DNA of 64,000 nucleotides from Candidatus Rifleibacteriota bacterium (lineage in GTDB: Bacteria; Muiribacteriota; Ozemobacteria; Ozemobacterales; Ozemobacteraceae), in NCBI GenBank assembly GCA_012520995.1, contig JAAYNI010000044.1, positions 62,001-126,000 of the forward strand, written 5' to 3'. A program made the position numbers and the translations under genes. Shown piece after piece: positions 4,688-8,279 of this stretch. The stretch's first letter is position 1. Every line of letters starts with the position of its first letter. A model generated the notes under the pieces. The model made no database searches, was not told the DNA's origin, and saw only the letters and a program-made list of their open reading frames with translations.

Positions 4688-4972
4688 TCAGCGTCCGTCT
4701 TTTTCTATATTAAAATCTTTTTCCGAAGGATTTTCGGTAGTGCCCAAAAGCTGAAGCATCTTTTCTTCTGTTTCATCCAAAAGCTTTTTGCATCGATCTG
4801 CAAACTTAATTCCCAAAGTATATAAATTCAAAGACGTTTCAAGCGGAGTGCCTTCTTTTTCGAGCAAACCTACGGTCTTCTCAAGGTTCGCCGCCGCAGT
4901 CTCATATGACATATCAGCCAAGGCTTCATCCGTAATCTTCAATAAATTTTCCAATTGAGAGTTTTGAGCCAT
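4688..4972 (-). CDS. xseB: Exodeoxyribonuclease VII small subunit
   Basis: This 94-residue product has the usual XseB length and helical hairpin. The conserved part runs from YETAAANLEKTVGLLEKEG through LETSLNLYTLGIKFADRCK to a coiled helix ending in EEKMLQLL. With XseA it degrades single-stranded DNA to oligonucleotides. The start is 1 nt behind the xseA stop, so the two subunits are translationally coupled. The stop runs directly into a repeat module. Confidence 0.92.
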   Translation of the reverse strand: MAQNSQLENLLKITDEALADMSYETAAANLEKTVGLLEKEGTPLETSLNLYTLGIKFADRCKKLLDETEEKMLQLLGTTENPSEKDFNIEKDGR

Positions 4973-4973
4973 T

Positions 4974-6224
4974 TTATCTCCCTTTTTTATTCAGTATTAT
5001 ATCTTGAACCTTAACTTCCGCTTTTCCATCTGCAAAAGCCAGAGTCAAAGGTTGCTCTTTGGACAAATCGGCTGCAGAAACAACTACCCTTCCCTCTTCG
5101 TCTGAAGCCATAAGATAGCCGCGCTTAAGAATAGCTTCAGGATTGAGTGCCAAGAGTTTATTAAAAGCAAGTTCTGTTCGATGGCGCTGTGATTTATAAA
5201 AGAGCTTAAAAGCGTTTTCCAAATCCCTTGTAAGAGACATTACATTTAATCTGCGTTCAGAAATCAACAACTCAGGTCTGGTTAAAAATCTGCAAGCAGC
5301 GTGCTTTGAATAGACTTGTCTCAAAAAAGCGATTTTACGCTTCATAAGATTTGTCATCCTGCCAGTTTGCAATTTAAGATAGGCTTCCAGTTCCGCTTTT
5401 ACCGGAACAGCAAGCTCACCGGCAACAGAAGGAGTAGCAGCTCTCTTGTCTGCAACAAGGTCTGCTATAGTGGTATCTGTTTCATGGCCTATAGCTGAAA
5501 TTACAGGCTTATGGCAAGCTCCTATTGCTCTGGCAACCGACTCTTCATTAAAACACCATAAATCTTCGAGACTGCCGCCGCCTCTGGCTATTATTATAAG
5601 ATCTACCCTGTTGTCAGCATCAAGACGCTCAATTCCTTGTACTATCTCTTCTGCAGCACCTTCGCCTTGTACTTTTGCAGGCACGAGATAAAGAGGCATA
5701 TTAGGATAACGTCTTCTGATAACCCTATAGATATCCTGTATAACAGACCCTCTCGGAGAGGTGACTATACCGACACCCTTCGGAATGAAGGGAAGAGACA
5801 TCTTTCTCTCAGGTTCGAAAAGACCCTCAGCAGAAAGCTTTTTCTTGAGTTTTTCATAAGCTTCGTAGAGAGCTCCTACACCGGCAGGACGCAGATCATT
5901 CACCAAAATCTGATACTCTCCTCTTGGAGGATAGACAGAAATATTGGCGTAAACCGTTACAAGATCGCCGTTCGCAAAAGAAGCTTTTATACGTCTTCGT
6001 ACACCTGCCCAAAGAGCCGCCTTAACCACAGATTTATCATCTTTTAGCGTAAAATAACAATGGCCGGAAGCTGCTTTGACCAGATTCGAAATTTCGCCTG
6101 TTATCCAAACCCCGGAAAGTTGAGAATCACCCTCCAAAATGTTCTTAATACGATTAGTTAAATCCGTAACACTGTACACCTTGTAGGGCAACGCGGAGGT
6201 TTGAATAGGCTCATCCAGTTTCAT
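4974..6224 (-). CDS. xseA: Exodeoxyribonuclease VII large subunit
   Basis: The 416-residue product has an N-terminal OB-fold (about residues 12-110, with LSGVWITGEISN and SGHCYFTLKD). It is followed by the catalytic exonuclease VII core with VGIVTSPRGSVIQDI and the IIARGGGSLEDLWCFNEE signature. A helical region and a short C-terminal beta segment complete it. It acts with XseB in single-strand DNA degradation during repair. Its ATG overlaps the accC stop by 4 nt (ATGA type). Confidence 0.95.
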   Translation of the reverse strand: MKLDEPIQTSALPYKVYSVTDLTNRIKNILEGDSQLSGVWITGEISNLVKAASGHCYFTLKDDKSVVKAALWAGVRRRIKASFANGDLVTVYANISVYPPRGEYQILVNDLRPAGVGALYEAYEKLKKKLSAEGLFEPERKMSLPFIPKGVGIVTSPRGSVIQDIYRVIRRRYPNMPLYLVPAKVQGEGAAEEIVQGIERLDADNRVDLIIIARGGGSLEDLWCFNEESVARAIGACHKPVISAIGHETDTTIADLVADKRAATPSVAGELAVPVKAELEAYLKLQTGRMTNLMKRKIAFLRQVYSKHAACRFLTRPELLISERRLNVMSLTRDLENAFKLFYKSQRHRTELAFNKLLALNPEAILKRGYLMASDEEGRVVVSAADLSKEQPLTLAFADGKAEVKVQDIILNKKGR

Positions 6225-7612
6225 TCTGCTGCCGCTTCCATATCCTGTTTTCGATGTTCCTTCATGAGAAAATCGGGCATATGCTGAGCTACGAAAGAAG
6301 TGTTGAAATTCCCTGAGCGAAAGGTGTCTGTATTTAAAGTATACTCATGAAAAGGAATGGTAGTATCCACACCTTTGATAGTAAACTCTGAAAGAGATGT
6401 AAGCATTCTGTTTATAGCTTCCTCACGATTATTTCCCCAGACAATCAGTTTTGCTATCATGGAATCATATTCGGGAGCTATTTCATATTCTTGATAAGCT
6501 GAAGAATCAACTCTTACCCAAGGACCGCCTGGAGCTATATAAGTCTCCAAGGTTCCTGGATAAGGAGCAAAGGAGTTTAAAGGGCTTTCCGCGTTAATAC
6601 GGCATTCAATAGCCCAGCCTTTCAAATCAGCTATTTTATAAGGCAAATTCAGCTTCTCGCCATTTGCAATCCTTATTTGCATTTCCACAAGATCCAAGCC
6701 TGTTGCCAGTTCTGTAATAGGATGCTCAACCTGAAGCCTTGTATTCATCTCCATGAAATAGAAGTTATCATTGCCGTCCAAGAGGAACTCCACAGTGCCA
6801 AGGCTATAATAGTTAATAAGTTCTGCCGCTCTTATAGCTGTTTCACAAAGCTTTTTGCGTAGAGCAGGCGAAACTGCTGGTGATGGACATTCTTCCAAAA
6901 GTTTTTGATGTCTGCGCTGAATGGTACATTCTCTTTCGCCTAGAGCTACAACTGTACCATGAGTGTCCCCAGCTATCTGAACCTCAATATGTCGAGGATT
7001 CGTTATAAATTTTTCAATATAAACTCTGCTGTCGCCAAATGAAGCTTGAGCTTCTACTTTAGCCATGTCAAACATAGAAGCAAAATCTTCTGGTTTTTCA
7101 ACCAAACGCATACCCTTGCCGCCCCCGCCAGAGGTAGCCTTAATCAGAACCGGAAAACCTACCTGCTTGGCTATTTGCAAGCCTTCCCGAGCATCCTCAA
7201 TGCTATCGGGAGAACCTGGCACAACAGGTATGTTGTTTTTTTGCATAAGTTCTCTTGCTACAGATTTTTGTCCCATTCGTTCTATTGCTCTAAAATCAGG
7301 ACCAATAAAGGTAAAACCGCATTTTTCTACTATTTCAGCAAAATTCGGGTTTTCGGACAAAAAACCGTATCCGGGATGTATGGCATCACACTTAGCTGCT
7401 TCTGCAACAGAAAGCACATTAGGAATACTTAAATAAGATTGATCCGGCCTAGCTGGTCCAATACAATATATTTCATCTGCCAAGCGAGTATGAAGAGCAT
7501 TTTTGTCTGCCTCTGAATATACAGCGACTGTTTTTATACCCATTCTCTTGCAGGTTCTTATTATTCTTACAGCTATTTCGCCTCTATTTGCGACTAGTAT
7601 TTTAGAGAACAT
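6221..7612 (-). CDS. accC: Acetyl-CoA carboxylase biotin carboxylase subunit
   Basis: This 463-residue product has the three biotin carboxylase parts: an N-terminal Rossmann-like domain (KILVANRGEIAVRI), ATP-grasp with the glycine-rich loop KATSGGGGKGMR, and the EMNTRLQVEHPITE signature. It carboxylates biotin on the carrier protein with ATP and bicarbonate in the first step of fatty acid synthesis. It is about 15 residues longer than typical because of a charged C-terminal tail. The upstream gene is the AccB-like protein, but that partner lacks the biotin-accepting lysine, so AccC must use another carrier. Confidence 0.95.
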   Translation of the reverse strand: MFSKILVANRGEIAVRIIRTCKRMGIKTVAVYSEADKNALHTRLADEIYCIGPARPDQSYLSIPNVLSVAEAAKCDAIHPGYGFLSENPNFAEIVEKCGFTFIGPDFRAIERMGQKSVARELMQKNNIPVVPGSPDSIEDAREGLQIAKQVGFPVLIKATSGGGGKGMRLVEKPEDFASMFDMAKVEAQASFGDSRVYIEKFITNPRHIEVQIAGDTHGTVVALGERECTIQRRHQKLLEECPSPAVSPALRKKLCETAIRAAELINYYSLGTVEFLLDGNDNFYFMEMNTRLQVEHPITELATGLDLVEMQIRIANGEKLNLPYKIADLKGWAIECRINAESPLNSFAPYPGTLETYIAPGGPWVRVDSSAYQEYEIAPEYDSMIAKLIVWGNNREEAINRMLTSLSEFTIKGVDTTIPFHEYTLNTDTFRSGNFNTSFVAQHMPDFLMKEHRKQDMEAAAE

Positions 7613-7770
7613 TAAAAATTTCCTTTGTCTAGTAAGTTTGCAACAATTATTTGTTAATATGATGAGGTCTCTTGATTTTTATTCTGTATTTTGAAATCTC
7701 TAAGCTTCAACTGCTTATCAGCAAGGCAAAGCAATTAGCGGCATTATTTAGTTTAAGGTTTTTATCCTTT

Positions 7771-7799
7771 CTACTCCCTACCCCCTAGTCCCTAGCTTT
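7771..7799. repeat. Module B repeat before the accB-like stop
   Basis: CTACTCCCTACCCCCTAGTC and a few further bases match module B of the dispersed repeats. On the minus strand the accB-like stop sits inside CACTAAAAGCTAG, resembling the second part of module E, and runs straight into B. The rest of the 7613-7798 gap shows no gene. Confidence 0.65.
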
Positions 7800-8209
7800 T
7801 AGTGCGGGAGGTCGACAACCATTAAGAGTTTTCCATAATCGACAACCGTACCATCTTTGACGGCTAACTTGCTTATAGTGCCATCCAAGGAACAATTTAT
7901 CTTATCCTTGAAACCTATGCCCTTAACGTAACCCAAAGTCTCGCCCTTGCGTATAGAATCGCCAACCTTTAGAGGATTCGCAAAAGTGAAGGTGCCCACC
8001 TTTTCGCACCTAATCTCTACCTGAGTTACCTCACTTTCATCCTGTTCAAATTCTTCAGGAGCTAAAAAATCCTCACAAGCGCCCACTTCTTTTATGGTCG
8101 TATCCAGTTTTATTTTCAAACTGGTTTTATCTCTGTTAGTAAGCTCAAAAGAGCTGTATCCATGTTTTTTCATGGCTGCGCAAATGACTTCGAGTTCTTG
8201 TATATTCAT
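7799..8209 (-). CDS. AccB-like protein lacking the biotinyl lysine
   Basis: The 136-residue product has the full BCCP layout. There is an N-terminal helix (MNIQELEVICAAMKKHG), an acidic linker, and a C-terminal biotinyl/lipoyl-like barrel starting at VGTF (residue 71). Gapless alignment puts the canonical EAMKM at residues 96-100, but here it reads KGIGF, so Gly99 replaces the biotin-accepting lysine. The hairpin flanks (KGETLGY before, LDGTISKLAVKDG after) are intact, so the fold is probably kept. Start 8209 was preferred over an ATG 16 codons upstream because of an AGGAAA site and the BCCP-like N-terminus. Plant BADC proteins show the same kind of loss and regulate acetyl-CoA carboxylase; a similar role here is inference. 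Confidence 0.85.
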   Translation of the reverse strand: MNIQELEVICAAMKKHGYSSFELTNRDKTSLKIKLDTTIKEVGACEDFLAPEEFEQDESEVTQVEIRCEKVGTFTFANPLKVGDSIRKGETLGYVKGIGFKDKINCSLDGTISKLAVKDGTVVDYGKLLMVVDLPH

Positions 8210-8279
8210 TAATCTTTTCCTATATATAAGAATGTTGTAGGCTCTGGATTCTATCATAAGAAAATAGCTTTTTCAATTC

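Follow-up and report, generated by a model that had tools for sequence, protein, structure and literature searches.

A conserved AccB paralog without a biotinyl lysine, encoded beside accC, is a candidate non-catalytic subunit of bacterial acetyl-CoA carboxylase

The accC gene block in the window (i.e., the whole 64,000-nucleotide stretch of Candidatus Rifleibacteriota DNA that was analysed) opens with a gene encoding a 136-amino-acid AccB paralog from which the biotinyl lysine is missing, and we consider this paralog to be probably, though far from certainly, a non-catalytic ("pseudo") BCCP subunit of acetyl-CoA carboxylase (ACC) that assembles with AccC and biotinylated AccB. Far from being peculiar to this locus, the gene described in an earlier note on this DNA belongs to a widespread paralog family that is present in at least three phyla. 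Direct evidence on the paralog comes from its sequence and predicted fold, the linkage of its gene to accC, its conservation, signs of purifying selection and the presence of an intact AccB in the same genomes; binding to AccC and AccB, and an effect on activity, are what we infer.

The open reading frame runs on the minus strand from an ATG at 8209 to a stop codon ending at 7799; a start at 8257, which would give 152 amino acids, is less likely because a Shine-Dalgarno-like AGGA precedes the ATG at 8209. The features of the locus, in which the paralog gene lies just upstream of accC, are as follows.

7799..8209, minus strand: accC-linked AccB paralog without biotinyl lysine, 136 amino acids (open reading frame, Pfam Biotin_lipoyl, relatives, AlphaFold2 fold)
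8102..8209, minus strand: predicted N-terminal helix and beta-hairpin, residues 1-36 (AlphaFold2; conservation 0.45/0.38, linker 0.13; Chloroflexus precedent, PMC11077971)
7808..8026, minus strand: predicted C-terminal biotinyl-type barrel, residues 62-134, with a shortened thumb (AlphaFold2, Foldseek, conservation 0.54)
7910..7924, minus strand: KGIGF, the hairpin tip replacing EAMKM (direct sequence, alignment, AlphaFold2)
7613..7798, no strand: 186-bp gap between the paralog gene and accC (length compared with relatives)
6221..7612, minus strand: accC, biotin carboxylase (TIGR00514/PRK08591 above cut-off)
4688..6224, minus strand: open reading frames directly downstream of accC, which we take, from sequence knowledge, to be xseA-like and xseB-like

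Codons 7924..7910 of the minus strand (AAG GGC ATA GGT TTC) encode KGIGF, which aligns without gaps to EAMKM and places Gly99 (codon GGT at 7915-7913) at the position of the biotinyl lysine. In the AlphaFold2 model, residues 98-99 form the tip of a hairpin between strands 91-97 and 100-105 (pLDDT >90), and this tip corresponds to the BCCP biotin site. The earlier note's observation that the biotinyl lysine is missing is borne out both by this alignment and by the linked genes of relatives, as the lysine is missing in 35 of the 35 Candidatus Riflebacteria genomes that have an accC-linked AccB-like gene. The same count rules out a sequencing error or frameshift, which the note had linked to relatives retaining EAMKM; not one linked homologue of the phylum has the lysine. 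Conservation of the glycine, by contrast, did not extend beyond the absence of lysine, since within the family glycine occurs only in this genome; judged from the alignments, the conserved feature of the paralog is thus that lysine is absent and not that glycine is present.

Preservation of the barrel and the N-terminal region, as proposed from the window alone, agrees with the AlphaFold2 fold, with Foldseek matches to E. coli BCCP and with conservation. Model confidence is high over most of the barrel (pLDDT >90) and moderate for the N-terminal helix-hairpin, and the best solved Foldseek matches include the E. coli BCCP biotinyl domains 1a6x, 1bdo and 4hr7, with Arabidopsis BCCP1 (9a87) matched as well. 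The protein matches Pfam Biotin_lipoyl at 27.2 bits (cut-off 22.1) and shares 30% identity across 54 amino acids with the AccB of its own genome, and a profile built from the family aligned with almost all of the E. coli BCCP chain in 4hr7 (E 1.3e-12). Like functional AccB (TIGR00531), the paralog combines the same fold and plan (N-terminal helix-hairpin, linker, barrel) with a place before accC, and its closest solved structure is that of E. coli BCCP. Unlike functional AccB, it has lost the lysine together with EAMKM, matches the NCBIfam BCCP model TIGR00531 only weakly (36.7 versus a cut-off of 115.2 bits) and falls on a separate branch. Furthermore, while the fold columns of the barrel are kept in the proteins without the lysine (G 100%, F 88%, G 99%, V 89%, L 85%), the thumb region is nearly stripped of its tyrosine (0.98 in canonical AccB, 0.18 in these proteins) and proline (0.97 and 0.01, respectively), and the thumb is shortened in the protein described here. 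Within the family, segment identity is highest in the tip (0.71), compared with 0.54 in the barrel and 0.13 in the linker. In other BCCPs the N-terminal region serves oligomerisation or the assembly of BC; in Chloroflexus aurantiacus BC1, the N-terminal BCCP hairpin alone holds BC dimers as tetramers, regardless of the biotinyl core (PMC11077971). Unlike the paralog, however, the BCCP of BC1 forms a fusion with BC and carries biotin on EAMKM (PMC11077971), and the separate C. aurantiacus BCCP also retains the motif.

The 35 linked genes of Riflebacteria carry Ser, Asn, Gln, Gly or Glu in place of the lysine. In Ozemobacteraceae, the family to which named relatives (Ca. Ozemobacter and Ca. Rifleibacterium) assign this genome, 21 genomes including the present one have the gene, with the motif KGIS[FIHV], RGISF, KGIGF or LSLNS; most members have serine at the lysine position (KGISF/KGISI), one genus has LSLNS, and accC lies immediately downstream of the paralog in the genomes of the family. 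Linked genes in other Riflebacteria families show RAMNI, TAINV, EAMNI, QCLGI, ESMQL, ESMNL or VSMEV. Two further phyla were searched with their own members as queries, and the lysine is missing in 22 of the 30 loci examined in one phylum and in 17 of the 30 in the other, fractions that are not prevalences as the 30 loci from each phylum were the best matches to queries without the lysine; motifs found were FALGI, RAMGL, DALTI, ESMRI, DTMHL, RVLGH, RAMHL, VSLQV, DCMGV and EVLGV. The stretches fetched for a minority of the loci did not reach accC, and there linkage was assumed from the paralog type. In total, 74 proteins without the lysine were found in the three phyla. Nine genomes of additional phyla (G040, G042, G045, G046, G047, G049, G051, G053 and G054) have an accC-linked AccB with the lysine. 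In two Riflebacteria genomes, G026 and G030, ACC-type AccC and AccB were not found and the paralog is likewise absent; only acyl-CoA-carboxylase-type BC and BCCP subunits were seen in their family (loci L132-L134). Two public records, which bear the titles "Candidatus Methylomirabilis" and "Erysipelotrichia bacterium" (L142 and L143), contain paralog-accC loci of the Ozemobacteraceae type, and these names look wrong.

With regard to the locus itself, accC is the sole copy of its type in the genome, with one strong match. The gap between the paralog gene and accC measures 186 bp, whereas most relatives have only 14-64 bp here and G023 has 174 bp; no repeat was seen in it that would point to an insertion, although short C-rich runs are present. 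A promoter scan gave matches at chance level, and a terminator scan gave two terminator-like sites, both on the opposite strand. The genome assembly (2.84 Mb, 96% complete) contains one other AccB, with an intact VEAMKMMNE motif, at C61:3145-3660; the search for a second accB that the earlier note had called for was therefore successful, and the possibility that no other accB exists is ruled out. This intact accB occupies an unusual place, with a DnaA-like gene on one side and a cluster of dihydrolipoamide-dehydrogenase-like, aspartokinase-like and GyrB-like genes on the other (L007:3145-3660). Also present are accD, one gene with a biotin ligase domain (C27:177526), and an OadA-type subunit with an intact biotin motif. 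Since an intact AccB, accD and a biotin protein ligase are all encoded, ACC should work without biotin on the paralog, and from gene content it looks functional in this sense.

The pairing of the paralog with a second AccB extends across genomes. Among genomes at least 90% complete, an unlinked, lysine-bearing AccB was found in 49 of the 49 that have a linked gene without the lysine, and a second AccB was missing in 15 of the 25 that have a lysine-bearing linked gene (Fisher p 1.8e-9; p 3e-5 in the phylum of G056 alone), p values that are optimistic and indicative, as related genomes are not independent. A second AccB was not detected in eight genomes with the lysine-less gene, all of them <90% complete. 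Three genomes of one Ozemobacteraceae genus (G014, G018 and G019; loci L080, L085 and L087), in which the linked paralog has LSLNS, encode an unlinked AccB with VSSCKNLNEI versus VEAMKMMNEI; the lysine is retained, the glutamate and both flanking methionines are gone, and the protein would be an unusual ligase substrate.

In a tree built from an alignment from which nine motif columns had been taken out, the accC-linked paralogs (45 rows, 7 with the lysine) separated from 55 canonical AccB rows as one branch with a support of 95, and a larger tree of 180 rows gave the same split with weaker support. The paralog branch is not defined by absence of the lysine, because some members retain it: eight in the phylum of G043, as well as that of G054. 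The eight loci concerned (L155, L162, L166, L167, L168, L174, L176 and L178; motifs ESMKL, EAIKL and ETIKL) come from genomes in which a second AccB is also present, possibly giving two working carriers, and these lysine-bearing members may carry biotin. A single clade was not rejected either for all proteins without the lysine (p-AU 0.59) or for the Riflebacteria paralogs (p-AU 0.85), while on the free tree, where lysine-bearing members lie inside the paralog branch, the lysine state requires seven changes; single and repeated loss of the lysine are both compatible with these tests.

Non-biotinylated relatives of BCCP are known from plants as BADC, and the parallel drawn in the earlier note stands to the extent that the biotinyl lysine is absent and a true BCCP coexists. 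BADC is homologous to BCCP, being about 25-30% identical to the true protein; it lacks the AMKL motif, coexists with true BCCP and is tied to biotin carboxylase (PMC11926652). The paralog is likewise homologous to BCCP (by its Pfam match, its profile match to 4hr7 and its identity to its own AccB), has KGIGF instead of an AMKL motif, and occurs with a true BCCP in the same organism (C61:3145-3660). Unlike BADC, which is nuclear-encoded and plastid-targeted, it is the product of a bacterial gene beside accC; it appears BADC-like by every sequence feature tested, and we claim this likeness and not membership of the class. An assembly role is also assigned to non-catalytic subunits that act as "glue" in some bacterial acyl-CoA carboxylases, in work cited in PMC11926652, although these subunits are not presented there as BCCP relatives.

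We propose that the paralog, which still has the AccB N-terminal helix-hairpin and barrel but neither the biotin attachment site nor the thumb residues, would be produced together with AccC and would co-assemble with it and with the biotinylated AccB that is encoded elsewhere. It would then serve as a structural, stoichiometry-setting partner in the biotin carboxylase subcomplex, a role argued for plant BADC, which has been described as an assembly glue or cap for BC-BCCP (PMC11926652). The part of the earlier note in which such a protein competes with BCCP and dampens ACC represents one position in a dispute within the plant literature; BADC as a competitor for BC figures in PMC7712654. Applied here, that model would have the paralog displace biotinylated AccB on AccC and dampen malonyl-CoA production, which we regard as possible but unlikely. 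It is one published model of plant BADC (cited in PMC7712654 and PMC11926652), co-expression with AccC would fix the AccC:inhibitor ratio, and the highly conserved tip could occupy the BC site. However, a gene fixed beside that of its target across phyla better suits a constitutive subunit than a conditional inhibitor, and recent plant work favours assembly (PMC11926652). We consider an assembly or stoichiometry role more likely than pure inhibition, since the gene has kept its place next to accC across large evolutionary distances.

It is improbable that the paralog is an autoregulator of the accC gene block, in which an excess of an AccB-type N-terminus represses transcription. While the N-terminal domain of E. 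coli AccB autoregulates accBC (reviewed in PMC3896788), and both the N-terminal region and the place upstream of accC are kept here, this explanation leaves unaccounted for that the barrel and tip are the most conserved parts, and no evidence of DNA binding was found.

We give very little credence to the idea that the gene is a relic of an old accC-linked accB, decaying since a second accB took over. The gene does sit at the classical accB position ahead of accC and, among genomes at least 90% complete, loss of the lysine is confined to those with another AccB. However, dN/dS values of close pairs are mostly 0.02-0.3, indicating purifying selection in many genome pairs and comparable to those of true AccB from the same pairs, with synonymous sites near saturation in many of them. 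With dN/dS well below 1, decay is refuted as a general reading, and a pseudogene is ruled out by dN/dS together with conservation of the tip. The frames are intact and kept across phyla, and since no segment is better conserved within the family than the tip, the paralog is, as far as sequence comparison can tell, a protein that is being maintained, with its tip under a new constraint, and not a decaying copy. Hardly credible, finally, is a working BCCP with biotin displaced to Lys96, Lys101 or Lys103, as the earlier note had allowed for: although Lys96 is invariant in the family alignment (A3, all members of KGIS/KGIG type), it sits in a strand three residues ahead of the tip in the AlphaFold2 model and gives way to Leu, Arg, Val, Glu and others in other genera and families, neither Lys101 nor Lys103 is conserved among relatives, and a proper AccB is present in the same genome, so that nearby lysines are ruled out by conservation.

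Plant BADC has been called unique to the plant enzyme (PMC11926652), and no bacterial counterpart of BCCP without the lysine was reported in the open-access literature searched; on that literature, a conserved bacterial counterpart of BADC provisionally appears to be unreported. We lean towards the view that in many bacterial ACCs an ancient AccB paralog, produced with AccC and present in at least three phyla, serves as a fifth and non-biotinylated subunit that assembles or tunes the BC core. The product of ACC is the first committed intermediate of fatty acids and the enzyme is an antibiotic target, and whether non-biotinylated BCCP-like subunits act as inhibitors or as assembly glue is disputed in plants. 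If the paralog is indeed a fifth subunit, pseudo-BCCP subunits would not be a plant invention, and proteins of this family that are annotated as AccB would not be biotin carriers. A bacterial family following the same logic would mean that the design is old or has arisen repeatedly, and it would provide simple systems in which the dispute between inhibitor and glue may be settled.
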